From positions 1-64,000 of the forward strand of contig JAVZNR010000008.1 of the NCBI GenBank assembly GCA_038882715.1: 64,000 bases of DNA, given 5' to 3'. This document shows, piece after piece, positions 3,221 to 29,697 of this stretch (position 1 is the stretch's first letter; each line of letters begins with the position of its first letter). The position numbers and the translations under genes were made by a program. The notes under the pieces were generated by a model. That model did not search any database. It was given only the letters and a program-made list of their open reading frames with translations, and was not told the origin of the DNA. The DNA is from Candidatus Bathyarchaeia archaeon. Lineage in GTDB: Archaea; Thermoproteota; Bathyarchaeia; Bathyarchaeales; DTEX01.

Positions 3221-4396
3221 ATGCTGTCTCAACTCACCATTATGGAACGCAAAGCAACGGCAGAGATGAAAATTTCCCATAAAGATTTGGCTGATGGATG
3301 GTTAAGTCGATTTGAGAGCATTAATAAATTGTTAAAGAAGCTGTCGAGAAAGAGTAAAAGTGAGTGGACAAAACGCACCTATCTCTCGATAATAGCCAAT
3401 TTATGTAACCGAGTAAAGGTAAACCCAGATGAGTTAATTAGGCTTAAAAAAGAGGACGTAGAGAAAATTATCCAGGAATACTGTGATGAACTAAATGGTC
3501 GTAGCTGCAGCCGAAGATACATTAACGGCATAATTCACGTTATGCGTTCCTTCTTTAAAGCAAACGGAATCGATATTACTCTTGAAGGATACTATACGCC
3601 TTCAAGATATAGGAAGAGACCCGAATATATACCAACAAAGGAGGAAGTTTATGCTATGGCTGACTGCGCTGGCAGTCTCCGCAACAGAGCTATAATCTTA
3701 TTCCTACTTTCAACTGGTCTCAGGGTTTCAACGCTAATTGCCTTAACGTATGGTGACATTAAGGATGATCTGGAAAAAGGTTATCCAATAATTAGGGTTC
3801 CAGTATATCCCGAAATGAAGAAGCGAGTTCCAGGGGCATGCAAAAACAACGTACCCTACTACACGTTCGCATGTGAGGAGGCGGTTAAGGCCTTGCGATT
3901 ATATCTTCGTGAGAGGATTGAGAAGTATGGGTCAATAGAACCTTACGAGCCGCTTTTCTGCTCCGAATATAATCAAATAAGTTTTCAAGAGCGTAGGTTG
4001 AAGTTCATGACTCCAAGGGAGGTTCAGAGAATTATTAAGGATGCTGCAAGAAAAGCCGGAATTGCTAACTGGATGTACGTTACTCCCCACTCACTTAGGA
4101 AGACTTATGAATCGATGCTCCGCAGCGAGCTTATCGATGGAGGAAGATTAGACGTAAAGACTCAAGAGTTTCTTATGGGGCATATTCTACCAGGATCTCA
4201 AGATGCGTATTACGATAAAACCAAATGCGAGCAACTTAGACTCGAATACGCAAGAATAAACTTCGGGAGAAAAGTTGTTGAAAACAAATTCAGCCTCCTC
4301 GAAACCGCTTTAACCAAAGCTTTTGAAGGGACTGGAATCGATTGGAAAGAGGTTTTAATAGAATATGTAAAAACGAGGATGAACTTATGCTTCTGA
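3221..4396 (+). CDS. Tyrosine recombinase/integrase (copy A)
   Basis: This 391-residue protein starts at ATG 3221 behind AGGAGGCGAT. An N-terminal helical core-binding domain (about 25-125) precedes a catalytic domain carrying the full active-site set: R168 in TGLRVSTL, a lysine region around K200, H290 and R293 in HSLRKT, H321 in LMGH and the nucleophile at Y330 or Y331 in DAYYD. It should therefore cut and rejoin DNA through a 3'-phosphotyrosine. It is convergent with, and clearly paralogous to, the recombinase at 4423-5769, with shared blocks such as RVSTL, HSLRKT and the YPEMK region. It lacks that protein's long N-terminal extension. Its DNA target is unknown. It probably belongs to an integrated element spanning this region. 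Confidence 0.85.
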   Translation: MLSQLTIMERKATAEMKISHKDLADGWLSRFESINKLLKKLSRKSKSEWTKRTYLSIIANLCNRVKVNPDELIRLKKEDVEKIIQEYCDELNGRSCSRRYINGIIHVMRSFFKANGIDITLEGYYTPSRYRKRPEYIPTKEEVYAMADCAGSLRNRAIILFLLSTGLRVSTLIALTYGDIKDDLEKGYPIIRVPVYPEMKKRVPGACKNNVPYYTFACEEAVKALRLYLRERIEKYGSIEPYEPLFCSEYNQISFQERRLKFMTPREVQRIIKDAARKAGIANWMYVTPHSLRKTYESMLRSELIDGGRLDVKTQEFLMGHILPGSQDAYYDKTKCEQLRLEYARINFGRKVVENKFSLLETALTKAFEGTGIDWKEVLIEYVKTRMNLCF

Positions 4397-4422: not shown

Positions 4423-5769
4423 TTAGAACTCCGCCTCAACAATCATTCTCCCATCTGGAAGCTTAAACCTGACAATCCATCCATTCTCAAGATAATTCTC
4501 AACTTCGTTGACATCGATGATTTTCTGCTTTTTCTTTTTACCTATCTTGGCTTTGCTAGGATTGGGGATCATCTTTGAAAATTTCTCTCTCAGTTCTTCC
4601 ACCTTACCCCAATCATAATAGAAGTCCATTGACCCCTCCATAACATGACCGAATAAAAACTCTTGGTCTCGAATGTCGAGTCTTGTCGCCTCAGGCTGGT
4701 TCCGCAAAAAGCTCTGAAAAGTTTTTCGAAGTGAATGGGGAGTTACTTCTCTCCATCGTTCAAGCCCAGCGGCTTTGGCAGCGTTCTTCACTATACGATT
4801 AACCTGCCTTGCGCTTAAAGGTCTCTTTCTCCTCATCTCCTTTCTTATCTGATTATAATTTGTTATGAAGAGCGGTTCATCATCCTCAATATCTCCAAAG
4901 GCCCGCTTTCTTTCCTCAATATAAAGCTTCAATGTCTTGGTAGCTTTCTTAGTAGTAAAAGTATAATATCTAATGTTGCCTTTACATGCATTCGCAACAA
5001 CTTCCTTCATCTCAGGATAGACTTTAATTTGAACATTCTCTACGCCCTTCTCTAGCTCATCTTTGACGTCTTTATATCTCAGCGCTAATAGTGTTGAAAC
5101 TCTCAATCCCGAAAAAGCCATAAGAAGAATCATTGACTTATCCCTTAAATTGCCCGCCACCTCCGCCATCTTCAGTGCTTCACTAGGCGTTGGAATATAC
5201 TCACTACGTTTACTGTATCGAGGCGGTATAGAGGGCGGAGAAACCTCTATATTGTTAAGCCCATTTACTCTAAAGAATGTTTTGAGGACGTTTACAGTAG
5301 TTGCAATATACCGTAAGCTCCTACCTTTTTCCCGCATCTCCTTGATCATTTCCTCAACCATTTCCTTTATCCTGTTCTTAGGCATTTTCACTAAAGTATC
5401 CGGATCTACATTGAACCTTGCACAAAACCGATAAATAGTACTACTATAAGTTTTCCTAGCAGCCTCACTGCCACTCTTCCTAATCCCCAAATATGTAAGC
5501 AGATTATTAACAGATCTATAACTGCTGCTCCACCCATCAATCTTAAGCACTCTCTCCCAGATTTCCGTTCTACGACACTGCAGTGTCGTAGAATGACAAT
5601 TCTGCGAAACCGTGGTGTCGCAGAACGCTTTGCTTGTATCAATTGTTTTTTCACCAGAACTATTATAGTAATTGCTAGTGGAGAAAAATTCGTCCAGCGT
5701 TTGATCTATAAGATTCGATTTTCCTCCATATTTTAGCTGACCTTTCTTTCTTTTGTTTTGCCTGTTCAT
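4423..5769 (-). CDS. Tyrosine recombinase/integrase (copy B, extended N-terminus)
   Basis: This 448-residue protein starts at ATG 5769. An N-terminal extension of about 65 residues, rich in S, T, N and Q, has no counterpart in the paralogue at 3221-4396. The catalytic residues are R223 in SGLRVSTL, H345 and R348 in HSLRKT, H375 in LFGH and Y384 or Y385 in DFYYD. A basic KKKKQK stretch and a small domain ending in RFKLPDGRMIVEAEF follow. Two 26-bp palindromes lie within the codons for residues about 49-67, in the extension. The upstream region (5770-5907) carries repeated TTTACTGA elements and is shared with a divergent gene. Whether A and B act together or are two generations of insertion cannot be told from sequence. 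Confidence 0.85.
   Translation of the reverse strand: MNRQNKRKKGQLKYGGKSNLIDQTLDEFFSTSNYYNSSGEKTIDTSKAFCDTTVSQNCHSTTLQCRRTEIWERVLKIDGWSSSYRSVNNLLTYLGIRKSGSEAARKTYSSTIYRFCARFNVDPDTLVKMPKNRIKEMVEEMIKEMREKGRSLRYIATTVNVLKTFFRVNGLNNIEVSPPSIPPRYSKRSEYIPTPSEALKMAEVAGNLRDKSMILLMAFSGLRVSTLLALRYKDVKDELEKGVENVQIKVYPEMKEVVANACKGNIRYYTFTTKKATKTLKLYIEERKRAFGDIEDDEPLFITNYNQIRKEMRRKRPLSARQVNRIVKNAAKAAGLERWREVTPHSLRKTFQSFLRNQPEATRLDIRDQEFLFGHVMEGSMDFYYDWGKVEELREKFSKMIPNPSKAKIGKKKKQKIIDVNEVENYLENGWIVRFKLPDGRMIVEAEF
5568..5593. repeat. Perfect 26-bp palindrome inside recombinase B
   Basis: The 26 bases read identically on both strands, with outer arms TTCTACGAC and GTCGTAGAA around an 8-bp centre. It is related to the second palindrome starting exactly 32 bp away. 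The arm-spacer-arm layout resembles a tyrosine-recombinase core site (about 9-8-9), though it could equally be an operator or an RNA hairpin. Confidence 0.75.
5600..5625. repeat. Second, imperfect 26-bp palindrome inside recombinase B
   Basis: The arms TTCTGCGA and TCGCAGAA are perfect inverted repeats, and the centre is nearly so. It shares the frame TTCTRCGA-10-TCGYAGAA with the palindrome at 5568-5593, and the centres are 32 bp (about three helical turns) apart. Both fall in the low-complexity N-terminal coding segment of the recombinase. Confidence 0.7.
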
Positions 5770-18036: not shown

Positions 18037-19893
18037 TCATTCGGGAAGCCTTCCAAGGCTCTCTAATTTGTCCGCTACTTCCTTTAAGCCATGCTTCTCT
18101 AAAGTTTCCCTTTTAGGCCAACCTGTTTCCGGATCCCATCCTCTAAGGCGATAAAACTCATCCATCAAATTTCTGAATTTATCCAAGTCTAGCCTTATTC
18201 CATTCATGTCTGGTTTCTGAAAGTATGGTATTACTGCCTCATCATCCTTTCTTGTTCTTCCTTCCCTAACCATTATCGCCCTCTCAAGGTTGTATATTCT
18301 GCTGCCGATGAAATCTAGATACCCTTCAGCGATATCTATCCTAGTGACGGCTGAAAGCATCTTCGCCTCTAAGTAGGTCTCGCCAAAGCCATCCGGCGAG
18401 AAAGCGTTAAAAATTACGGGAAAAGCCTGATCGCACACAAGAAGCGAGTCGTCAACAGCAAGCCTATTCTGATGCCATATTGTTGGCTGCGCCTTATATT
18501 CGTAGCCGCTTTCAGGATCAACCGCAGCCTCAGAACCATAGAGGCGTTTCCCAATAGCTTTAAGCCTATCTATGGATATGGGCGCATTCTCCCTCATAAC
18601 CCAATACGTTATGTTTTGAGCATAGCAATGCACCAATGGGTCTCTAGAGTCCATTGCCCATTGGAGGGCCGCAACAATCCAATATGGATATTTTGGCGCC
18701 CCGAAAAATCGCCCATCCCAATGCGTCTCAAATCCATGCGCAACGTGCGGTGAAAACTCCCGCCCTTTTCCGAGAATATCTATTGCCCTTGGAACACCCT
18801 CGGCGAACACCTTGCCTATACCTTCCTTATATGCTATCTTTTCAAGCATCTTGCTCCAGAACACCCCGCTCTTAAGGTCTATCGGCATACCTAAATCCTC
18901 CTCAGTGATCAGCCCCGCCTTAACGCAGTTATCAAGCCATTTGCCGACTCCAGTGAAGCCTAAAACAATCTCCCAATGATTTAAACCCAGTCTATCAGCG
19001 ATCTCAGCCGCCTCGAAGCCAGCTTCCCAGGGCTTAAATCTCAAATATATGGGAGAACAGCAATGAACTGCGCCAGTATAACGCCTAGAGGAAAGCTTTC
19101 CTTCAACATTCTTGTAGACAATCATTTTGCACGCAGACACGTTGCATGCTAAACTACAGGCTTTTAAGTTTGATTCACGTCCCCCTGGGACTCTCCTATA
19201 CATGATCTTTTGAACGTGCTTACAGATTTCAATTAGTTCTTTCGGCCTCGCAACTTTCACCATCCCAGATCCTTTTACTGTAATTGCCTTTAGATTTTTT
19301 GATCCCATAACGGCTCCGAAGCCTCCCTGGCCCGCCGCGCTTTCCAACCCATGATGAATAGTCGCTATTCTAACCAAGTTTTCTCCCGCTGGACCTATAC
19401 ATATGGTTTGCGAGCCGCCCCCATGCTCCTCCATCAACTTTTTCTGAGTTTCAAACGTGTCAAGCCCCCAAAGATTCTTAGCATCCTTAATCTCGACCTC
19501 TCCGTCCTCGATCCATAAGTATACCGGTTTTTCGGATCTTCCCTCAATGATTACTCCATCGTAGCCCGCATACTTTAATTCGGCTCCAAAATACCCGCCC
19601 ATGTTAGATCTCGTGTAATGAGGTTTGGGATAGGCTTGCGGCGCTATGCCCGCAAAGACCATTCTACCCGATGTCGGCGCAATGGTTCCAGTTAATGGTC
19701 CCGTCATCATTATTAACTTGTTTTCGGGGCTGAAGGGGTCGATACCGAAAGGAAGCTCTTCCCACGCTATAGCGGCTGCAATGCCCCTTCCACCTATGAA
19801 TTTCTCCGCATACTTCGTGGTGTCCATCTTATCTATTCTTCCATTTGTCAAATTCACGCGGAGTATCTTTCCAACCCAACCATAGATCTCCAT
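18037..19893 (-). CDS. Aldehyde:ferredoxin oxidoreductase-family tungsten/molybdenum enzyme
   Basis: This 618-residue protein has the AOR N-terminal domain (KFIGGRGIAAAIAWEELPFG, GPLTGTIAPTSGRMVFAG, GAELKYAGYDGVIIEG), which binds the bis-pterin cofactor. Cluster ligands appear as C246, C250 and C255 (CSLACNVSAC), with the distal C487 in LLVCDQAFPV. The spacing C-x3-C-x4-C differs from the C-x2-C-x3-C of classical AOR. AORs oxidise aldehydes to acids or run in reverse, with electrons passing to ferredoxin. The gene starts seven bases after a ferredoxin-like gene, so the two likely form one complex. The substrate is unknown; the paired ferredoxin recalls the YdhV/YdhY-type arrangement. Confidence 0.85.
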   Translation of the reverse strand: MEIYGWVGKILRVNLTNGRIDKMDTTKYAEKFIGGRGIAAAIAWEELPFGIDPFSPENKLIMMTGPLTGTIAPTSGRMVFAGIAPQAYPKPHYTRSNMGGYFGAELKYAGYDGVIIEGRSEKPVYLWIEDGEVEIKDAKNLWGLDTFETQKKLMEEHGGGSQTICIGPAGENLVRIATIHHGLESAAGQGGFGAVMGSKNLKAITVKGSGMVKVARPKELIEICKHVQKIMYRRVPGGRESNLKACSLACNVSACKMIVYKNVEGKLSSRRYTGAVHCCSPIYLRFKPWEAGFEAAEIADRLGLNHWEIVLGFTGVGKWLDNCVKAGLITEEDLGMPIDLKSGVFWSKMLEKIAYKEGIGKVFAEGVPRAIDILGKGREFSPHVAHGFETHWDGRFFGAPKYPYWIVAALQWAMDSRDPLVHCYAQNITYWVMRENAPISIDRLKAIGKRLYGSEAAVDPESGYEYKAQPTIWHQNRLAVDDSLLVCDQAFPVIFNAFSPDGFGETYLEAKMLSAVTRIDIAEGYLDFIGSRIYNLERAIMVREGRTRKDDEAVIPYFQKPDMNGIRLDLDKFRNLMDEFYRLRGWDPETGWPKRETLEKHGLKEVADKLESLGRLPE

Positions 19894-19900
19894 ACCGTTA

Positions 19901-20314
19901 TCACCCGACTACTTTAAGGGCTTGGGAGGGGCATATCTGCACGCACTGAGGACTGCCGAAGCATAAATCGCATTTCATGTAAACCCTCTTTTCAGGGTTA
20001 AAAACAACTATGTTTTTCTCAACGTTATACGGGCATGCTTCAGCGCATAATCCGCACCCCACGCATTCACCTTCATCTATGAAGTATGCGTTAGATTTTT
20101 CATCGAATTTTATGGCTCCAGTTGGGCATGCTTTAGCGCACTCCGGATCAGCGCATTGCCTACACACGTAGGCTTTAGCCTCAGCCTCAAAAATATCTAG
20201 AGAGATTCTTATTCTCGACAGCTCTAAGCTGCAGCCCCCCTCATGATGCAATGAGCAAATAAGCTCGCAGCTACGGCACCAAACACATTTCTGGCCGTCA
20301 AACTCTATCCTCAT
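19901..20314 (-). CDS. Four-cluster ferredoxin-like subunit
   Basis: In 137 residues there are four cysteine groups: CVWCRSCELIC near the start, CRQCADPECAKACP, CVGCGLCAEACP and CDLCFGSPQCVQICP. Together they can hold about four [4Fe-4S] clusters, as in the HycB/DmsB/YdhY type of electron-transfer subunit. It is immediately upstream of the AOR-family gene on the same strand and presumably carries electrons from that enzyme to a soluble or membrane acceptor. No signal peptide or membrane segment is visible, so it should be cytoplasmic. Confidence 0.85.
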   Translation of the reverse strand: MRIEFDGQKCVWCRSCELICSLHHEGGCSLELSRIRISLDIFEAEAKAYVCRQCADPECAKACPTGAIKFDEKSNAYFIDEGECVGCGLCAEACPYNVEKNIVVFNPEKRVYMKCDLCFGSPQCVQICPSQALKVVG

Positions 20315-20425
20315 GAATCATGTTCACCGTGATTCAGCCAGCGTTTCATATTAGGAGAAGCGCCAAACATTTAAAGGTTTAAGGGGAAATCGGCTACATT
20401 TTTGGCGGATACTACCCCAATTATA

Positions 20426-21550
20426 TTATTTGCCATGTAGAGGATATCTTCCATATTTTCTTGCTTCTTTTACCATTGTGTAAATGTTTTCTACCTTGAC
20501 ATTTGCGTGTAATGAGTTGCTTGATGTTAGGATGAACCCTCCACCTTCCGCGGCCGCGTTAACGCATCTTCTCACGTCTCTTTTCACATCCTCTTCATCG
20601 CCAAATGGAAGAACATATTTACAGTCAACATTTCCCGCCAAACATATCTTTAAGCCATATCTCTCCTTTACATCCCTTAAGCTCATTACGCCGGGCTCTA
20701 TGGGATGCAAGCAAGATATACCTGAGCCAACTATATCCTCTAATATTGGGTAAATATTTCCGTCCGAATGCTTTAACACCGGTATACCATATTTTCTCCC
20801 AACGCTAACGATTTCCTTTAAGTTAGGTAGCTCGTATTTCCTAAAGATTTCTGGGCTCATAAAGGGCCCTTTACTATCAGCGTAATCATCTGTCACGAAT
20901 AGGGCGTCCACCCCGGCCTCAGCCATAACTTTGGCGAAACCTTGGCAAGACCTTGCAATTTTATCTAGAAGTTTCTTTGCGAAAAGCGGATTTCGATAGA
21001 AGTCTACCAATATTTTATCTATTCCGCCTCTTACCTGAAACGCCATGTGCCATCCGCTGTGGCACTGCGCTATAATGGCGATATCTTCACCTCTCGCTTT
21101 ACTCATAATTTTCTCAATGGCTTCAATGACATCTTGATGGAATGGGTCCGGCGGCTCATAGAATTCTAAATCCTCTTGAGATTCGATTATTCCGCTGACA
21201 AAGAACGTTGTCTTCGCCTCCCTGCTCATCTGCATTACTCTGCCCCAATGATCAACATACCTTTTCCCATCAATATACCTAGGACTATAATCCTTTGTCG
21301 TAAGCGAGTAATCGGATAGGGCTGGTGCCGCATCAAAACCCAGCTTTTTGCACGCTTCGATAAGGGCAAGCCTATAGTTTAGCGATTCATCCCACCCAGC
21401 GCTTCCACCAGCCATCGTGAAAACTCCGCCGGAAAATCTTTTACCTAGGACTGCATCAACGATTGGCGGGTCGAGAGCAAGATCCGTTATTGGAACATAG
21501 TCCGGCTCCTCTAAGTCTAAAGCCCTAAAAAACCTTTCTCTACGATTCAT
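20426..21550 (-). CDS. Uroporphyrinogen decarboxylase (URO-D) family protein
   Basis: ATG 21550 is preferred over GTG 21559 as it begins the family pattern NRRERFFRALDLEEPDYVPI. The 374-residue TIM barrel includes VTDDYADSKGPFMSPEIFRKY, LKHSDGNIYPILEDI and CLAGNVDCKYVLPFG, shared by URO-D proteins of the methyltransferase type (MtaA/MtbA/CmuA-like). These usually move methyl groups between corrinoid proteins and cofactors rather than make heme. No corrinoid protein gene is in the window. It is divergent from the small membrane protein at 21618. The reaction is unassigned. Confidence 0.75.
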   Translation of the reverse strand: MNRRERFFRALDLEEPDYVPITDLALDPPIVDAVLGKRFSGGVFTMAGGSAGWDESLNYRLALIEACKKLGFDAAPALSDYSLTTKDYSPRYIDGKRYVDHWGRVMQMSREAKTTFFVSGIIESQEDLEFYEPPDPFHQDVIEAIEKIMSKARGEDIAIIAQCHSGWHMAFQVRGGIDKILVDFYRNPLFAKKLLDKIARSCQGFAKVMAEAGVDALFVTDDYADSKGPFMSPEIFRKYELPNLKEIVSVGRKYGIPVLKHSDGNIYPILEDIVGSGISCLHPIEPGVMSLRDVKERYGLKICLAGNVDCKYVLPFGDEEDVKRDVRRCVNAAAEGGGFILTSSNSLHANVKVENIYTMVKEARKYGRYPLHGK

Positions 21551-21589
21551 TTTAATCACAAGAATAAGTTTAAGGTCAGATTAAATTCT

Positions 21590-21600
21590 TATATTTTATA
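21590..21600. promoter_or_regulatory. AT-rich divergent promoter
   Basis: TATATTTTATA lies about 24-26 nt before GTG 21618, fitting a leaderless start for the rightward gene. The same AT-rich block could serve the leftward URO-D gene. Confidence 0.4.
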
Positions 21601-21617
21601 CCTAAAATACTGTTATA

Positions 21618-22004
21618 GTGAGGATTAAAGAATATTCGCTTGCCTATATGAGAGGTTATTGGAAGGCAATGAAACTACATAAAGTGTACTTGGTATTCTT
21701 TGGGGCGTATCATATACCGCATTTACTGCCCATGTTTGGGCTATATGAATTCATGATCGGTGCTCCCGGTTTTCTGCCGCTATTCTGGTGGCATTTAATT
21801 TTACTGTTCGTTTATGGTGTAGCTCCAATTCTAGCGGTCATCACTAACCGAAAAAAGCTATACATATTTGTTGCCATCTCATCGGCGCTTGGCTCAGTAA
21901 TTGAAGTCTTAAAGATATTTAAGTGGACTTACGAATTCTACTATGCGCTTGCCGTCCTCGATCTTCTGGCAACTTTTTCAGCCTGCTTAGCGATAAAAAG
22001 ATAA
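21618..22004 (+). CDS. Small integral membrane protein, unknown
   Basis: This 128-residue protein starts at GTG 21618 (probably leaderless). Hydrophobic segments at about residues 24-42, 54-76, 80-98 and 107-125 suggest four membrane helices. The sequence is rich in aromatic residues, and the loops carry K/R on the side expected to be cytoplasmic (TNRKK). I do not recognise a named family. It is isolated between a divergent URO-D gene and the end of the convergent four-gene operon, giving no clear functional clue. Confidence 0.65.
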   Translation: MRIKEYSLAYMRGYWKAMKLHKVYLVFFGAYHIPHLLPMFGLYEFMIGAPGFLPLFWWHLILLFVYGVAPILAVITNRKKLYIFVAISSALGSVIEVLKIFKWTYEFYYALAVLDLLATFSACLAIKR

Positions 22005-22091
22005 TTTAAGCGGTTTAGACCATATTTTATGGGAGAGATGCTCGTTAACCCATTTAACTATGATGAGATCGGGCATTTCCAGAAAAACAAT

Positions 22092-23750
22092 CTATTTAAC
22101 TTTTATTATGCCATGCTCTCTAATCTTTACGATAGTTGGGAACAGATTTTCAAATGCTGCGATAGTTTTCTCGTCATGTTTTTCAGTGATGAGAAACAGT
22201 GCTGGAATTCTAAAAGAAGATGAGATCTCGATGGCGCTTCTCGTAAACCTGTAAGTTTTTTCAAACCCGATGGAGTAATACAGGTCTGTAAGGTTATCTA
22301 TGAGCAGCGAATATGTTTTCTTTGCGGCTAAAGATAATTCTCCAAGCAAATGGGTTAAATTATATAGGGGCAATTCAACTTCACGCTCTGAAACGGCGAC
22401 TCTTTTTGATGCTTCAGATGATAAATAGAAGATGTACGTTTGCTCGCTAGGCAAATATTTCAGTATCCTAGAACCCCTCCTAGTGAATACCGCAAGTTCC
22501 TCGCAATTAGCTAAAACCTCATAAATGTAAGCCTTAACGAACTCCTCGTATCTTTCAGAAGGATCTATCTCTACCAGAACGGGGTTCCCAAACAAGTCTT
22601 TATGCGTAAAACCAAGATGCCGCGAAAATCCATCGAGATTCTCCTCAGAAAAACCTTTCGGTAAAAATATGTTTCGAAGCTTGCCGTCAGCCAACTCGTG
22701 AAGTATCCTAGCTTTTTTTATGAGGTCTTCATGGGCTTTTATCATTGCTACGCTATCGCTTTCAATTAACGGATTTATGCTATCCCAAAACTTCACTAAG
22801 TCATTTATAACCTCATATGGTAATTCTCCGCTTTCTATGTACTCTAACGTTTTATCTATGATTCTGACTAGACGAGAATAATCGGGCTCTTTTTGAATAG
22901 AAACTTTGCCTCCTGAAAGGACGGCGTATTCGCTGATTCCTGTTTCCTTCAAGTATTTGTCAAACTTGAGGTATCGTTGCCCTAGAACATCCTCTTCCAT
23001 TAAGCTAAAAACTCTTTGAAGAAATAGGGAGGTCTTTTTAGATAAGTCTTCGTATAATACTGAAAGTTGCGTTTCTTGCATTTTTTCTTTCAGCAATATG
23101 CCGAATGTTATCATTGATAGACCTATGCTTGTGGCTATTCCTCCTAAAGGCAGGGTTTCGGGAAAAACATAAAGCAGGATCGTGTTAAATATGACTACGC
23201 CGATAACGAAGAGTATAGTGAAGCCGAAAAGTATAAACTTATACTTTCTCCTGACGAAAGATGATCTGCTTTCTCTAATCGGCTTTATTATCCAAACATA
23301 ATTTAGAACAATGTAAAATATTGTTAGTGGGAGCAACATATAAGAGGACACTCCATATGTGAATACGTATGACCAGCCGAATTTTGTCCAAAAGACCTCG
23401 AAAGGCGAAAAGATCAGAATGAAGGCAAAGAACACTAGGTTTGGCACTAGAGCAACAAGGTGCTTCATACTTCCATCTTGAAGGAAAGAAATCGTTAAGA
23501 AGAGTGCTGGAAGCATAAGCGAAGCAAACCCGGTTCCTAACGCGAAAAATGTTTTTGACAGAAAAGCATTTGGAGCATTCCTGTGAAGAAAGATAAGGAA
23601 TTGCCATAGGGCTAAAAAAATCGAGAAAAGCATGAAAAACTTTGACGCCATAGAGCCACGGCTCTTGTAAAAAACATAAAAGCCGAGCAAAAGAGATAAG
23701 GTTCCCGCTACAATATATTGGAGGGTAGCTGGAATAAAGTACCATTCCAT
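22092..23750 (-). CDS. 7TM sensor with C-terminal DUF835 domain
   Basis: This 552-residue protein has about seven N-terminal membrane helices (residues 1-225), resembling the 7TM module of sensor kinases. A cytosolic region of about 190 residues and a C-terminal segment, KKTYSLLIDNLTDLYYSIGFEKTYRFTRSAIEI and following, split here as LLIDNLTDLYYSIGFEKT and RFTRSAIEISSSFRIPALFL, match the archaeal DUF835 pattern. There is no histidine-kinase H or N box, so it is not a kinase by sequence. It is the last gene of a tight operon with a GH3-like enzyme, a KaiC-like ATPase and a V4R-like protein. DUF835 folds like a degenerate RecA/KaiC domain in my reading of its pattern, so it may contact the KaiC-like partner. 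Role inferred. Confidence 0.65.
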   Translation of the reverse strand: MEWYFIPATLQYIVAGTLSLLLGFYVFYKSRGSMASKFFMLFSIFLALWQFLIFLHRNAPNAFLSKTFFALGTGFASLMLPALFLTISFLQDGSMKHLVALVPNLVFFAFILIFSPFEVFWTKFGWSYVFTYGVSSYMLLPLTIFYIVLNYVWIIKPIRESRSSFVRRKYKFILFGFTILFVIGVVIFNTILLYVFPETLPLGGIATSIGLSMITFGILLKEKMQETQLSVLYEDLSKKTSLFLQRVFSLMEEDVLGQRYLKFDKYLKETGISEYAVLSGGKVSIQKEPDYSRLVRIIDKTLEYIESGELPYEVINDLVKFWDSINPLIESDSVAMIKAHEDLIKKARILHELADGKLRNIFLPKGFSEENLDGFSRHLGFTHKDLFGNPVLVEIDPSERYEEFVKAYIYEVLANCEELAVFTRRGSRILKYLPSEQTYIFYLSSEASKRVAVSEREVELPLYNLTHLLGELSLAAKKTYSLLIDNLTDLYYSIGFEKTYRFTRSAIEISSSFRIPALFLITEKHDEKTIAAFENLFPTIVKIREHGIIKVK

Positions 23751-23753
23751 TTT

Positions 23754-25376
23754 TCAAATCGACTCCAATAAATCTAGTACCCTTTTTCTCTCGGCAGAAA
23801 CAATCTTTGGAGGCTTTATTTGACCTATCTCCGCGCCTTCTTTCGCCATTTTAACCGAGTATTGTAGGAATGCTCCTTTCCTTAAATACTTAACTTTAAT
23901 GATTTCAGTAGGGTTCTTGACGGAGAAGTCTCTCACATAGTTTTGGAAGTCAGGGAATGTTTTTAAGAGTGCCTCAAATATGATTCTGGCGGTTTCTTCT
24001 TCTGAATGCTCCCATGGCTTCTCCATCGCGACGTATAGGTATTCTCCTTCACCGCTAAACATTTTTGTAATAGCCCACTTCTCAAAATATTTCAACCCCG
24101 CCTCCCTTAAGGCTCTTGAAAAGATTCTTTCAGTGAGCCTAAAGTATCCATAGAAGTCTAACACTTCCTCAACTCGGCTCTTAAAAATGAAATATGGCAT
24201 ACCATCATCCCTAAAATCGACGACTGATAGAAGGTCTCTAATCCTATGTCTGATGAGGATAGATTCGATAGATGTTCCTACAAGCTCATAGGTCTCTCCT
24301 TTTTTAAGCTCATCTATCCTCCTTAAATTACCCCTTTCATCAATGAATTCATAGTAGCCGGATCTTAAATTCGGGATCAAACACTCCTTTCTATCCGGAG
24401 GCCCGCACATAATTACTGGGAACTCCGTAGAACCATATATGTTGGTCGGCTCAATCCCAAATTCTTGGACGAAAAAATCCTTATATGGCTCTATATTTAC
24501 GCCAGCTACCCCTATACCTTTAAGCGGCAGCAGATCCGCCAACTTCTCATGCTTTTTACCAAAATATGAGCTTAACCATTTAAATAACATGTAGGCCTTT
24601 GCAAAGCCAGCATTCAGTGAACTATAGTACTCTCTGAATATTTCGGGTTTATTTTTCAGATACCTACAAACCAGTTGAAAGAAAGATGTTGCTCCGGCAG
24701 CGAAGACCGGCCTCTTCCCCCTTTCAATCTCCTTAAGAATAATCCACATTCTTCTTCCCATATCAGTTACTTCTTCGGCGGTTTCCACTGAGGGGACGAC
24801 ATTAAAATATTTGCTGCCCAACAGAAGCCCCCATCCTGAAATATATGGGATAGGCGCGGCGAGCTGTAATCCAGTCTCGCCCTCTCTGACCTTAGTCTCC
24901 CCCCAGTTTTCGCTGCAAATTAGGGCTCCTATAGTTACGCAATTCTCTTCATAGTCTCTCATGCTTGTGACGCCGTGAATTATCCATTTAGGTTCTCCGG
25001 TTGTACCGGATGTTTTTGCAGCGTAGCCGAATTCGTCGATCATCCATTCGTCGATTATGGGCTTTAGCTCGGCAAATAACCCGGAATAATAGGCAAATAG
25101 GCGTTCTCCCCACTTTCGAGGTTTTTTCGCCATCATTGCCTCTATTTTTGATCCGAATTCTCGTAGAATAGGATAGTCCTCGTAGGTTGTTAATGGTATA
25201 TCTTCAAATCTTTCGAATTCTCTGCCATATTTCATCATCAGGTATTTCGCCGTCTTTGTCTTCTTCCACTTCTCAAAATGCCTCTTAACTCTCTCTTCGG
25301 AGTAGGCAACTTGCTCAGAAAACGGCTTCTCAAAAAAGCTGCAATATTTACGCCATATCTCTCCCTCATCCATCAT
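23754..25376 (-). CDS. GH3-like acyl-adenylating enzyme
   Basis: This 540-residue protein belongs to the ANL-related GH3 group. The phosphate-binding loop TSGTTGEPKW lies at about 122-131, and the adenine motif NIYGSTEFPV near 315-325. The later part (SVVDFRDDGMPYFIFKSRVEEVLDFYG) corresponds to the hinge before the mobile C-terminal domain. GH3 proteins activate carboxylates as acyl-AMP and, in plants and some bacteria, couple them to amino acids; archaeal substrates are unknown. It lies between the KaiC-like and 7TM-DUF835 genes with gaps of only 6 and 3 nt, so it may make or remove a small acyl signal in the same system. Family good, substrate unknown. Confidence 0.75.
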   Translation of the reverse strand: MMDEGEIWRKYCSFFEKPFSEQVAYSEERVKRHFEKWKKTKTAKYLMMKYGREFERFEDIPLTTYEDYPILREFGSKIEAMMAKKPRKWGERLFAYYSGLFAELKPIIDEWMIDEFGYAAKTSGTTGEPKWIIHGVTSMRDYEENCVTIGALICSENWGETKVREGETGLQLAAPIPYISGWGLLLGSKYFNVVPSVETAEEVTDMGRRMWIILKEIERGKRPVFAAGATSFFQLVCRYLKNKPEIFREYYSSLNAGFAKAYMLFKWLSSYFGKKHEKLADLLPLKGIGVAGVNIEPYKDFFVQEFGIEPTNIYGSTEFPVIMCGPPDRKECLIPNLRSGYYEFIDERGNLRRIDELKKGETYELVGTSIESILIRHRIRDLLSVVDFRDDGMPYFIFKSRVEEVLDFYGYFRLTERIFSRALREAGLKYFEKWAITKMFSGEGEYLYVAMEKPWEHSEEETARIIFEALLKTFPDFQNYVRDFSVKNPTEIIKVKYLRKGAFLQYSVKMAKEGAEIGQIKPPKIVSAERKRVLDLLESI

Positions 25377-25382
25377 GGCTTT

Positions 25383-26093
25383 TCACTCTTCAGCCTCCGG
25401 ATAAGGTAATAATTCTACTCCAATATTCTTTGAGATATTATACTGGTAGTATCTCAGGTTTAGATCCGTCGCCCGCATCTTAAGAACTATCAATCTCCTT
25501 CTGAGGAAGTTTTCTCTAGAAACCATTTCAAGCATAATTATTCCGTCGGATAGAAACTCCTCAACACCGGTGCCAAGCCTGCCACTCCCCCACGGGATTT
25601 CAGCCGTCAATATTGTTGTGCAGCCCAGTCTACGCAGCACTTTCTGGAGAATAGATATTAATGTTCTTACCTCAGCCATGCTTCTGAACACAACTGTTAA
25701 AGCGGTAATGGAATCTATAACTAGCCTTTTAGCCCCCATAACTCTAACGGTCTCAATTATTTCATCGAGGGCCGCCTCCGCTTTATCAGTTTCCTTCAGG
25801 GATAAAAGATCTAGAATCTCTACCTGCTGTTTTTTCTGCAAGTTGTCGAAGTTCCATCCAAGCGTAAGCATATTATTCTTAAAGGACTCAGCCCCCTCCT
25901 CAAAAGTTACAAAAACGCCTTTCTCCCTATACTTTGCGGCCCCCAAATATATGAATTGGGCTGCAAGTATAGTCTTACCGGTTCCGGGGCCTCCGGCTAT
26001 TAAAATTGTGCTCCCCTCTGGAAAGCCACCCTGCAATATTTCGTCGAGCTTCTCCACTCCTGTTGGGATTCTTCTCAATTTAACTTTCACCAC
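25383..26093 (-). CDS. KaiC-like RecA-superfamily ATPase
   Basis: This 236-residue single-domain protein contains the RecA/KaiC core. IPTGVEKLDEILQGGFPEGS leads into Walker A GGPGTGKT (34-41). VFVTFEEGAESF carries the conserved glutamates, and RLVIDSITAL is Walker B. LKMRATDLNLRYYQY near the C-terminus matches the KaiC K-M-R motif region. Such archaeal KaiC-like proteins act as ATP-driven switches in signalling. Its start overlaps the V4R-like gene by 14 nt, and it is followed 6 nt later by the GH3-like gene, so all are co-translated. Confidence 0.85.
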   Translation of the reverse strand: MVKVKLRRIPTGVEKLDEILQGGFPEGSTILIAGGPGTGKTILAAQFIYLGAAKYREKGVFVTFEEGAESFKNNMLTLGWNFDNLQKKQQVEILDLLSLKETDKAEAALDEIIETVRVMGAKRLVIDSITALTVVFRSMAEVRTLISILQKVLRRLGCTTILTAEIPWGSGRLGTGVEEFLSDGIIMLEMVSRENFLRRRLIVLKMRATDLNLRYYQYNISKNIGVELLPYPEAEE

Positions 26094-26520
26094 CCTTTGG
26101 ATAAAATATGGCTTCTAGCTCGCTTGGAAAATTATTCCTCATCTCCTTGACTGAAACCTTTTTTCCAGCAATACCCTCAAGGAAACCTGCAATTATACCG
26201 TATAAAATGAAGCGTGAATGCGGTGTTTTAAGAGAGGTTTCTTGAATTATAATCCTCCCCAGAAGATCGCTTTCCTCAACATCCGTAAAGATAAGGTTTC
26301 CTAAGGCTCTCTGAGCAAAGTATTCTGAGAGGGTTCTTAATCTCTCTTGGAAAGTTGCATCATACCTCTTGATCGCCTCAGCGTAACTTCTTCCGATACC
26401 TATGCCAATGTACCGCAATATTAGAGTGCCCCCGGAGCCGAAGAACTCATATATGGTGTCTGAGATCTCATCCCACTCTTTAATAATCCATTTAATTTCC
26501 ACCTGACCAATATTTTTCAA
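26080..26520 (-). CDS. V4R-like small-molecule-binding protein
   Basis: This 146-residue protein starts at TTG 26520 behind GGAGGT. The pattern TLILRYIGIGIGRSYAEAI followed by a helix, and FILYGIIAGFLEGIAGKKVSVKE with a closing beta strand, resembles V4R-type ligand-binding domains (related to haem-NO-binding folds), though the Cys residues that often mark V4R are missing. It begins the operon with KaiC-like, GH3-like and 7TM-DUF835 genes and may provide the ligand-sensing input. Fold assignment is tentative. Confidence 0.5.
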   Translation of the reverse strand: MKNIGQVEIKWIIKEWDEISDTIYEFFGSGGTLILRYIGIGIGRSYAEAIKRYDATFQERLRTLSEYFAQRALGNLIFTDVEESDLLGRIIIQETSLKTPHSRFILYGIIAGFLEGIAGKKVSVKEMRNNFPSELEAIFYPKGGES

Positions 26521-26684
26521 ATAGCGACCTCCAGATTAAAGGACAATCAAAGGTCTTTGTTCAGCCCTAATAAAGATTATTACGTTTTTCGAAAATAATG
26601 TGCGCCCTTTGGGATAAGAGTGCTACTTTTTTATATGTTAGGTCTACTCGCCTGATACTTAAAAAAGCGTTTCCACATATATGT

Positions 26685-27047
26685 TTAAGGGGCGCTATCT
26701 ACTCTTCTCTCCAAATCTACCAGCAAGCGTATTAAGGCTGTCATCCTTTCCCTAGCCCAAGACTTCCCTTTTTCAGTTACAGAGAAGACTCTACTCCTAT
26801 TTGTCATCGTATCTCCCTTGATTAAACCTCTCTTCTCCATTAAATGGAGTGTAGGATATAGGACGCTTGGCGCAACCAAGACCCCAAAAGCCTCATATAT
26901 ATGCGACAGCAGCTTATAACCAGTCATGGGACCATCCCTTAGCAACATCAGCACGACGATTAAGTCTAGAAACGTTTTACAGAATTTATCCCTGATTTCC
27001 CTTGAGACAGAAAATCTGACGAGGCTATGCGTATCTCTCTGAGCCAT
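26685..27047 (-). CDS. PadR-family transcription regulator
   Basis: ATG 27047 is chosen because GAGGAG lies just upstream; an upstream ATG adds an unlikely 27-residue hydrophobic leader. The 120-residue product contains the PadR winged helix: LDLIVVLMLLRDGPMTGYKLLSHI, then SVLYPTLHLMEKRGLIKG and RVFSVTEKGKSW. PadR proteins are dimeric repressors that bind palindromes near their own promoters. It has no C-terminal effector domain beyond a dimerisation helix. It is separate from the four-gene operon to its left by 164 nt, and whether it controls that operon is unknown. Confidence 0.8.
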   Translation of the reverse strand: MAQRDTHSLVRFSVSREIRDKFCKTFLDLIVVLMLLRDGPMTGYKLLSHIYEAFGVLVAPSVLYPTLHLMEKRGLIKGDTMTNRSRVFSVTEKGKSWARERMTALIRLLVDLERRVDSAP

Positions 27048-27282
27048 AAAGTCTCCTCTAAAGGAGATTTTATACGGATTAAATAAAAATTTTGGAGCAA
27101 AATTTAAGAATAATTTAAGCCCTATCAAAAATTTTAGTTAAGCGATGTTTACGATAATATTGTTTATCTTTAAAGTTTAAAGCCAGATATTTTTACTGGT
27201 TGAAAGCAATAAACATTGGCTTAGTGGCTTCCAGTTTATTTGGGCACTTCTATTCATCTAGAACAATAATAACGGCGTGATC

Positions 27283-27921
27283 TCAGGAGGCGCTCTTCTT
27301 CTCAGCTATTAAAACGCGATACCCGCTTTCCCTCGCGAGAACTGTAAAATTGCCGAATGCTTCCTTGAGCATCTGTGTAAATCTTTCTTTCCCAATCTTC
27401 GATCTCACAACTATCTGTAGTACGCCCCCATTGCTTAAATATTTCGGCGCCTCAGTCACTATGGCTCTGACCGTTGCTAGCCCGGCGCTTATAGGCGGAT
27501 TGGAGAGTATACATTCAAAAGTCATGCCCCTAACGGGATCATAAAGGCTGCCATGTCTAGCTTCAGCGTTATTAACCCCATTAATCTTGATGTTGTGTTT
27601 AGCGAGGTTTACGGCCCGCTTATTTACGTCAACCATTACTACGTGAATATTGGGGTTCAATGCGGCGGCTACAATTCCAATAACTCCGTATCCGCAGCCA
27701 ATATCCAGAACATAACCTTTTTCTGGTAGAATCATGTTTTCAACCAAAATTCTTGTGCCTAGATCAACTCGATTCTTCGAAAAGACGCTTTTAGACGTCA
27801 AAAACTGAAATCTTTTTCCACGTAGATACGCATTTATCAGCTTAAACTCCGGCTTAGATCTCGGTCTGGGAGTAAAGTAGTGCTCTACTTCACTAGGTTT
27901 ACCGCACATATTTTCATTCAT
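27283..27921 (-). CDS. Class I methyltransferase, RsmC/small-methyltransferase type
   Basis: This 212-residue protein has a SAM-binding motif GYVLDIGCGYGVIGIVAA (about 89-106), acidic motif MVDVNKRAVNLA, and SNPPISAG, the N-P-P motif of N-methyltransferases acting on nucleic-acid bases or glutamine. The pattern from YFTPRPRSKPEFKLI through FQFLTSKSVFSKNRVDLGT is that of the archaeal MTS group related to RsmC. A role in modifying rRNA is likely but the target base is not known. It stands alone, 124 nt from pyrB on the same strand. Confidence 0.75.
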   Translation of the reverse strand: MNENMCGKPSEVEHYFTPRPRSKPEFKLINAYLRGKRFQFLTSKSVFSKNRVDLGTRILVENMILPEKGYVLDIGCGYGVIGIVAAALNPNIHVVMVDVNKRAVNLAKHNIKINGVNNAEARHGSLYDPVRGMTFECILSNPPISAGLATVRAIVTEAPKYLSNGGVLQIVVRSKIGKERFTQMLKEAFGNFTVLARESGYRVLIAEKKSAS

Positions 27922-29097: not shown

Positions 29098-29697
29098 ATG
29101 TTCAGGTTCTATGACGAGGAACACGATAATCCGCCGCATGTGCCTCCACCACCCCCACCTCCACCACACGGACCATGGAGAAACTTAGGTAGACATTTAG
29201 CCTGCGTTCCTAAAGGCTTTTTAAAGTTCCGTGTTCTCTGGCTGCTGAAAGAGAAGCCCATGTCGGGCTCAGAGATAATGGATGAAATTGAGAAGGAGAC
29301 TCATGGTTTCTGGAAGCCTAGCCCCGGGTCGATTTATCCGCTCCTAGCATGGTTACAGGATAAGGGCTATATTAAAGAAGTTCCAAGTGGAGAGACGGGG
29401 GTAAAACGTTACGCAATAACCGAGCAGGGCTTAAAACTGCTGGAGGAGCAGGCTAACATACAGGAGAAAATGCGGAGAATAATCTTTTTTGCTCCACGCT
29501 TCATATGGTTCCTTCCCTCAATGAGAAGGGTTGCTGAGTTACGGGAATCCTTTGAGAAAACTATTAGATCTCTTATAGATTTGGAGGAGGCTCTTAGGGA
29601 GAAGTTCGACGAGGAAACGCTTAAGGAGGCATCCAGAATTCTAAACGAGGCTGCCGAGAAGATTGAAGGGCTCGCTAAGAAGGCTAGGGAGAAATAG
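29098..29697 (+). CDS. PadR-family regulator with His/Pro-rich N-terminus
   Basis: This 199-residue protein starts at ATG 29098. Residues about 8-35 are rich in proline and histidine (eight consecutive prolines, with histidines on either side), a low-complexity stretch that could bind metal. The PadR winged helix follows: VLWLLKEKPMSGSEIMDEI, GSIYPLLAWLQDKGYIKE and KRYAITEQGLKLL. A long C-terminal helical region (about 120-199) should mediate dimerisation. The palindromic promoter just upstream suggests it represses itself, and possibly the divergent pyrB side or the ThuA gene 88 nt downstream. The effector is unknown; metal sensing is only a guess. Confidence 0.8.
   Translation: MFRFYDEEHDNPPHVPPPPPPPPHGPWRNLGRHLACVPKGFLKFRVLWLLKEKPMSGSEIMDEIEKETHGFWKPSPGSIYPLLAWLQDKGYIKEVPSGETGVKRYAITEQGLKLLEEQANIQEKMRRIIFFAPRFIWFLPSMRRVAELRESFEKTIRSLIDLEEALREKFDEETLKEASRILNEAAEKIEGLAKKAREK

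Follow-up and report, generated by a model that had tools for sequence, protein, structure and literature searches.

A GH3-like enzyme and a seven-helix membrane protein as a candidate signal synthase-receptor pair with exchangeable output in a Bathyarchaeia archaeon and its relatives

The window analysed here is a stretch of 64,000 nucleotides from the metagenome-assembled genome of a Candidatus Bathyarchaeia archaeon (contig JAVZNR010000008.1 of assembly GCA_038882715.1). The four open reading frames that had been predicted to form a signalling operon in this window are real and lie at the predicted positions, all on the minus strand. They encode a V4R-like protein of 146 amino acids, a KaiC-like protein of 236 amino acids, a GH3-like protein of 540 amino acids and a seven-helix (7TM) membrane protein of 552 amino acids. 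Their tight packing was likewise confirmed, with an overlap of 14 bases between genes 1 and 2, followed by gaps of 6 and 3 bases. The cassette in which they are embedded holds two genes beyond these four, one for a small 4-helix membrane protein and one for a PadR-type regulator. The features are as follows.

21560-27282, no strand: the whole cassette; a congeneric species has the two flanking genes next to each other without it
21618-22004, plus strand: small 4-helix membrane protein (alignment to L040:7247-7654, 7e-23)
22092-23750, minus strand: gene 4, 7TM receptor with an inactivated-KaiC (DUF835/DUF7090-like) C-terminal domain (helix prediction; homology to GH3-adjacent 7TM proteins)
22092-22613, minus strand: output domain of gene 4, a degenerate KaiC/RecA fold, the place of which is taken by HisKA and HATPase in Bathyarchaeia relatives
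23094-23750, minus strand: seven-helix sensor domain of gene 4 (residues 1-219), the equivalent of which is the polymorphic part in genus g114
23754-25376, minus strand: gene 3, GH3-like acyl-adenylating enzyme and presumed signal synthase (PF23571; PDB GH3.12; conserved motifs)
24996-25013, minus strand: nucleotide-binding motif I of the GH3-like enzyme, TSGTTG (residues 122-127; motif conservation)
25383-26093, minus strand: gene 2, KaiC-like ATPase (PF06745; intact Walker A motif GGPGTGKT, residues 34-41)
26080-26520, minus strand: gene 1, putative V4R-like ligand-binding protein (predicted fold; homologues in genus g114 with an N-terminal AsnC-type HTH)
26685-27128, minus strand: PadR-type winged-helix regulator (PF03551, 1.2e-10), missing along with the cassette in the sibling species; probable ATG start at 27047

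The assignment of gene 2 to the KaiC/RecA-type ATPases was borne out by its Pfam match (PF06745, 1.6e-64) and by the P-loop that starts at residue 34, and the protein is 43-48% identical to the KaiC proteins encoded in the same operon of genus g114. Gene 3 also proved to be GH3-like, as predicted: the model PF23571 (GH3_M) scores 27.1 bits, above its cut-off of 23.6, the Pfam models of the N- and C-domains score under their cut-offs, and a PDB search with a profile of nine GH3-like homologues returned GH3 enzymes exclusively, including GH3.12 (the best match, at 1.5e-8), JAR1 and GH3.5. The motifs TSGTTG, YGSTE, RHRIRD and GQIKPP are present in the window protein and recur with small variations across all aligned homologues. 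A strict motif regex had raised the idea that the GH3 motifs are degraded, and the enzyme inactive, in genus g114. This idea was rejected because the alignment shows conservative motif variants in which the key residues are kept.

The other two assignments stood in part. An AlphaFold2 model of gene 1 (pTM 0.72) matches the H-NOX/TRAPP-Bet3/PoxR/MopR superfamily (PoxR 5fru, TM 0.72; MopR, TM 0.67-0.69; H-NOX and Bet3, E-values of 1e-4 to 2e-3), and also BcsD. The predicted fold thus agrees with a V4R domain, but Pfam PF02830 scores only 15.9 bits against a cut-off of 31 and we therefore refer to this protein as V4R-like. Its likeness to the aromatic (phenol) sensors PoxR and MopR and to Bet3 counts in favour of the synthase-receptor reading set out below, and V4R domains are thought to bind hydrophobic ligands (PMC2253512). 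Profile searches with the V4R-like protein were dominated by matches to AsnC-type HTH domains (model positions 3-60). Strong matches spanning the V4R part itself were confined to the seven operons and to two g114 genomes, each of which has one such paralogue away from KaiC. These HTH and V4R-like paralogues (L129:6968-7633 and L130:4000-4656) adjoin a TrmB-like regulator and show no association with KaiC or GH3. An HTH hidden upstream of the V4R-like gene of the window was not found in the three frames checked, which contain just short stretches between stop codons.

Gene 4 had been described as a 7TM-DUF835 protein. The seven helices are indeed predicted (residues 7-219) and are followed by a helical linker and a RecA-like alpha/beta domain (residues 391-550), but there is no Pfam DUF835 match in this protein. 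Its tail gives weak matches to DUF7090 (20.7 bits) and DUF7504 (14.2 bits; cut-off 27) and contains no P-loop. Fold searches yielded marginal matches of the C-terminal half to FlaH and KaiC (E-values of about 2e-3) and of the membrane half to GPCR-type helix bundles, also with marginal E-values. The tail is better called an inactivated KaiC/RecA-like domain of the DUF835 kind, DUF835 itself having been described as an inactivated KaiC domain (PMC5847659). The Pfam family HisKA_7TM does not match the window protein; it does match the relative encoded at L040 (29.5 bits; cut-off 28.6), to which the window protein aligns across the membrane domain and linker.

The cassette lies between a URO-D gene (20426-21559) and a methyltransferase gene (27283-27921). 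In a sibling species of the same genus, represented by L073, the counterparts of these genes (3227-4381 and 4495-5112; 83% and 75% identical, respectively) are separated by 113 bases, and the genes that come next are the same as in the window. Because the sibling has both flanking genes adjacent to each other without the cassette, the block from 21560 to 27282 is a discrete insertion, or its absence from the sibling is a loss. GH3 was not found in the ten other searched genomes of the window's genus. The PadR-type regulator within the block is a possible DNA-binding partner of the cassette. Homologues of the 4-helix protein adjoin GH3 at several Bathyarchaeia loci, and none was found near GH3 in genus g114. 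An aldehyde ferredoxin oxidoreductase (AFOR), a ferredoxin-like protein and the URO-D-family protein are encoded next to the cassette (18037-21559). They were considered as partners of the system and rejected, as the sibling keeps the URO-D gene without the cassette. On the other side, at 29098-29697, lies a gene for another PadR-like protein, the N-terminus of which is rich in proline (PPHVPPPPPPPPHGP); this protein is conserved across the genus.

Conservation was assessed in genomes that are mostly metagenome-assembled. GH3 loci were found with an alignment-based contig scan, a single-sequence scan having given no matches, and the search outside the phylum comprised pattern scans and one other archaeal phylum. 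GH3 homologues with 41-45% identity occur in 12 of the 257 genomes of the class and in 13 of 398 genomes of the phylum. In genus g114, which by its assigned kinship belongs to another class of the same phylum, GH3 is present in six of eight genomes, including all four good ones. A survey of gene order showed that the arrangement of the window recurs in these six genomes, where it reads: AsnC-type HTH fused to a V4R-like domain, KaiC, GH3, and 7TM with an inactive-KaiC tail. Since the order of the four genes is kept in other genomes, it is not a chance arrangement. GH3 and 7TM genes are neighbours in all 17 loci with the relevant flank intact (five divergent, the others tandem), and a GH3 profile and one built separately from the 7TM domain with its linker identified an identical set of 13 out of 398 phylum genomes. 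The corresponding Fisher p-values are 1e-24 by genomes and 1e-9 by genera, although it should be noted that relatives are not independent and that five genera are involved. A gene order unique to this genome, together with partners that do not co-occur elsewhere, would have refuted the original prediction; instead, the order is shared by six other genomes, and GH3 and the 7TM receptor co-occur perfectly in the sample of 398. The deeper unit is the pair of GH3 enzyme and 7TM receptor, and KaiC and V4R are not constant.

One exception concerns genome G014, which has an extra gene for a 7TM protein with a histidine kinase (HK) and without an adjacent GH3 gene. This second 7TM-histidine kinase gene (L128 and L125, on contigs C54 and C3) is apparently split over two contigs, and the GH3-7TM pair lies elsewhere in the genome. 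A pair of the HK type was also encountered at L036 (JAUQYT010000225.1), which is filed under Candidatus Njordarchaeum and where the pair is flanked by a gene that shares 42-46% identity with neighbours in Bathyarchaeia. As the 148 genomes of that phylum contain no other copy and a flanking gene matches Bathyarchaeia neighbours, mis-binning or transfer is likelier, and L036 was rejected as a sign of wide distribution.

In the Bathyarchaeia relatives of the window, KaiC and V4R are missing from the GH3 locus. The GH3-adjacent 7TM protein of these relatives shares the membrane domain and linker with the window protein, and ends in HisKA and HATPase domains. Because these relatives have a histidine kinase at the end of what is otherwise the same receptor, the comparison of domain architectures indicates that the output is swapped, consisting either of a histidine kinase and response regulator or of an inactivated KaiC (iKaiC) domain with KaiC and V4R, and that GH3 and 7TM are kept. 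The ATPase that the original prediction had placed in between is therefore present, but as an exchangeable output module for which a histidine kinase substitutes in the Bathyarchaeia relatives. In both the GH3 tree and the sensor tree, the HK-type and g114-type sequences each form one clade, so that one output exchange would suffice; the window sequences sit on a long branch between the two types. A pair of the HK type is also carried by the genome of Ca. Bathyarchaeum tardum (L046). At several HK-type loci, further genes come next, which encode a receiver-domain protein, a protein of about 101 residues, the 4-helix protein and, in some cases, a winged-helix regulator. The protein of about 101 residues (L037:2877-3182 and L040:7655-7978) has no convincing Pfam match; its gene occupies a conserved place, with the response regulator on one side and the 4-helix protein on the other.

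The four close g114 metagenome-assembled genomes with loci L056, L057, L058 and L059 were compared codon by codon. This revealed a polymorphic block of about 2 kb, encompassing most of GH3 and the 7TM sensor domain, between near-identical V4R/KaiC and linker/output sequences. L058 and L059 share 97-98% DNA identity in V4R, KaiC and tyrS, and 59-82% from about residue 75 of GH3 to about residue 250 of the 7TM protein. Specifically, identity drops at GH3 residue 75 or so, amounts to 70-82% up to the end of GH3 and to 59-73% through the seven-helix domain, climbs between receptor residues 250 and 400 approximately, and reaches 92-98% beyond residue 405 or thereabouts. When L056 and L057 were compared with L058 and L059 in protein windows, identity was 24-48% in the membrane domain and 71-100% in the linker/output region to about residue 640, the values of the last windows being depressed by truncation of the L058 gene. 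Genus g114 is the only one in which the polymorphic block was observed. Among Bathyarchaeia, the pair L037-L043 differs most in the 7TM domain (57% versus 77-84%), and no such contrast was found in the pair L042-L043.

Synonymous positions follow the same pattern. Between L058 and L059, 53% of four-fold degenerate sites are identical in the block versus 91% outside (p-value of 7e-26), and the corresponding values are 26% versus 67% for L057-L059 and 26% versus 58% for L056-L059. For L056-L057 the relation is reversed (71% in the block versus 57% outside; p-value of 4e-4). Because four-fold degenerate sites diverge in the block too, these data argue against simple relaxed protein selection as the cause of the divergence. 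By this measure, the block would predate the species split in some pairs and have been shared more recently in another. As L056 and L057 are more alike inside the block than outside, and the other pairs show the opposite, enzyme and sensor domain appear to have been exchanged together, as a unit, between lineages. A single assembly chimera cannot account for all these loci, because they sit on contigs of 438, 140, 79 and 38 kb. L058 is located at a contig end (G290:C82), and the same metagenome-assembled genome holds a second receptor variant, L126 (C106), which is 91% identical over the overlap. The presence of two overlapping, differing versions of the receptor gene in one genome suggests that G290 is a strain mixture in which contigs break near the polymorphic block.

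Genus g114 thus has what is seen in agr-type systems, namely a contiguous variable region over the signal maker and the sensor part of the receptor, with conserved sequence outside. If receptor specificity were all that mattered, the membrane domain would be expected to vary. Here, most of the enzyme varies together with the membrane domain while the linker recovers, and this is the layout predicted for a matched pair of maker and reader.

We consider it reasonably probable, on this basis, that the locus is a signal synthase-receptor cassette, in which GH3 makes a signal of the acyl-amide type, the 7TM protein recognises it, and V4R/KaiC or a histidine kinase and response regulator relay it. 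GH3 enzymes couple carboxylic acids to amines via an acyl adenylate. The enzyme of the window would likewise adenylate a carboxylic acid and then attach an amine, which is probably an amino acid, giving a small amphiphilic amide. A precedent among bacteria is the GH3-like OlsH, which makes N-acyl-ornithine from fatty acids and ornithine (PMC12493201). The seven-helix domain would recognise the product of the enzyme, or possibly its acid precursor, and the inactive KaiC-like tail of the receptor would then act on the KaiC-like ATPase and the V4R-like protein. The latter may control transcription of target genes through its own HTH in g114 and perhaps through PadR in the window, while the same enzyme and receptor would use a histidine kinase in Bathyarchaeia relatives, in some of them with an adjacent response regulator. 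Presumably the cell would release the signal for other cells to share; no gene of the cassette stands out as encoding a dedicated exporter. The prediction of a circuit for sensing or making an acyl-derived molecule is thus supported as far as recurrence and co-occurrence are concerned, whereas we infer its acyl chemistry from the GH3 family. A more far-reaching version is plausible, although we advance it more tentatively: this may be a polymorphic, pherotype-like form of chemical communication among archaea, in which a GH3-made acyl-amide is read by its cognate 7TM receptor through either output, and in which the synthase-sensor block would be a specificity cassette swapped between strains.

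The most serious alternative, which we nevertheless regard as unlikely, is metabolite sensing, whereby an aromatic or branched-chain acid from outside is sensed by the receptor and conjugated by GH3 for inactivation or storage, with no communication between cells. Acids of this kind are produced by peptide-fermenting archaea. Moreover, the V4R relatives PoxR and MopR sense aromatics, and plant GH3 enzymes modify hormones like auxin in this way (PMC11253546). However, it is not obvious why a receptor for environmental acids should come in several alleles that are exchanged together with the enzyme in one genus, and the cassette is devoid of conserved transport or catabolic genes. It is less probable still that the system serves envelope modification, with GH3 making an amino lipid like that of OlsH, the 7TM protein monitoring the membrane, and selection by viruses or at the surface varying the 7TM protein and, by linkage, the enzyme. 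Surface-exposed domains do often vary, and the bacterial GH3-like OlsH makes a lipid precursor (PMC12493201). Linkage alone is nevertheless disfavoured because it would favour neither side, whereas the variation is asymmetric, extending over nearly the whole enzyme on one side and recovering about 30-150 codons past the membrane domain on the other. In addition, amino lipids of the ornithine type are reported to be absent from archaea (PMC12493201). Both alternatives fit the polymorphic block less well than the synthase-receptor reading. Lastly, an ordinary KaiC-hub signalling operon with GH3 as an unrelated passenger is very improbable, since, even though archaea widely use KaiC-like proteins and iKaiC domains in signalling (PMC5847659), GH3 and 7TM are constant whereas KaiC and V4R are not, and the co-occurrence of GH3 and sensor is perfect, a conservation pattern that has already largely refuted this view.

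Almost no genes for cell-cell signalling are known from archaea, and a 2025 paper regards filI as the sole archaeal gene with an empirically demonstrated role in quorum sensing (PMC12240190). Against this background, the GH3-7TM pair is a testable candidate for chemical communication among archaea. If the synthase-receptor reading is true, it would provide a defined enzyme, a matched receptor and natural allele pairs for cross-activation, KaiC-type ATPase circuits and histidine kinases would be interchangeable as outputs of one receptor, and GH3 enzymes, known from plant hormones, may serve archaeal signalling. In agreement with the claim that no such system had been described, none of this composition was found in the open full-text literature on KaiC/V4R/DUF835 signalling, prokaryotic GH3, GH3 with histidine kinases or quorum sensing, Bathyarchaeia signalling and archaeal quorum sensing. 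The families of the parts are known, but their composition, the exchangeable output and an archaeal polymorphic synthase-sensor block appear to be undescribed.

The main prior work is reportedly that of Makarova et al. 2017 (mBio e01959-17) on KaiC-like ATPases as signal hubs with iKaiC/DUF835 partners. Such hubs, as described in PMC5847659, resemble the present system in combining an active KaiC with an inactivated KaiC domain borne by a receptor, and differ from it in the coupling to GH3, the HisKA_7TM-like receptor and the exchange for a histidine-kinase output on the same receptor. FilI/FilR of Methanosaeta harundinacea also links archaeal signal synthesis to a two-component system (PMC3991700, PMC12240190), but FilI is a single CHASE4/HAMP/PAS/GAF/HisKA protein that makes carboxyl-AHL, and GH3, 7TM and KaiC have no part in it. 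The plant GH3 acyl acid amido synthetases and bacterial OlsH share with the window enzyme a profile match, the nucleotide motifs and the C-terminal GQ.KP motif, whereas the window enzyme is distant in sequence, archaeal and located inside a signalling cassette. In LuxM/LuxN and CqsA/CqsS, the synthase gene adjoins that of a multi-helix membrane kinase sensing its product; these systems are bacterial and their synthases are unrelated. The agr system (AgrB/AgrD/AgrC/AgrA) likewise has signal-making and sensing parts side by side, with a contiguous hypervariable region over the synthesis genes and part of the receptor, which in Staphylococcus aureus spans agrB, agrD and agrC (PMC12312760). Here, by contrast, the 3 bases between GH3 and 7TM in the window leave no room for a peptide precursor gene, the operon has no AgrB-like gene, the maker is a GH3-like ligase, the membrane domain is another one and the output in the window is of the KaiC type instead of a histidine kinase. 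The GH3-7TM system may work like agr, yet it is not agr.
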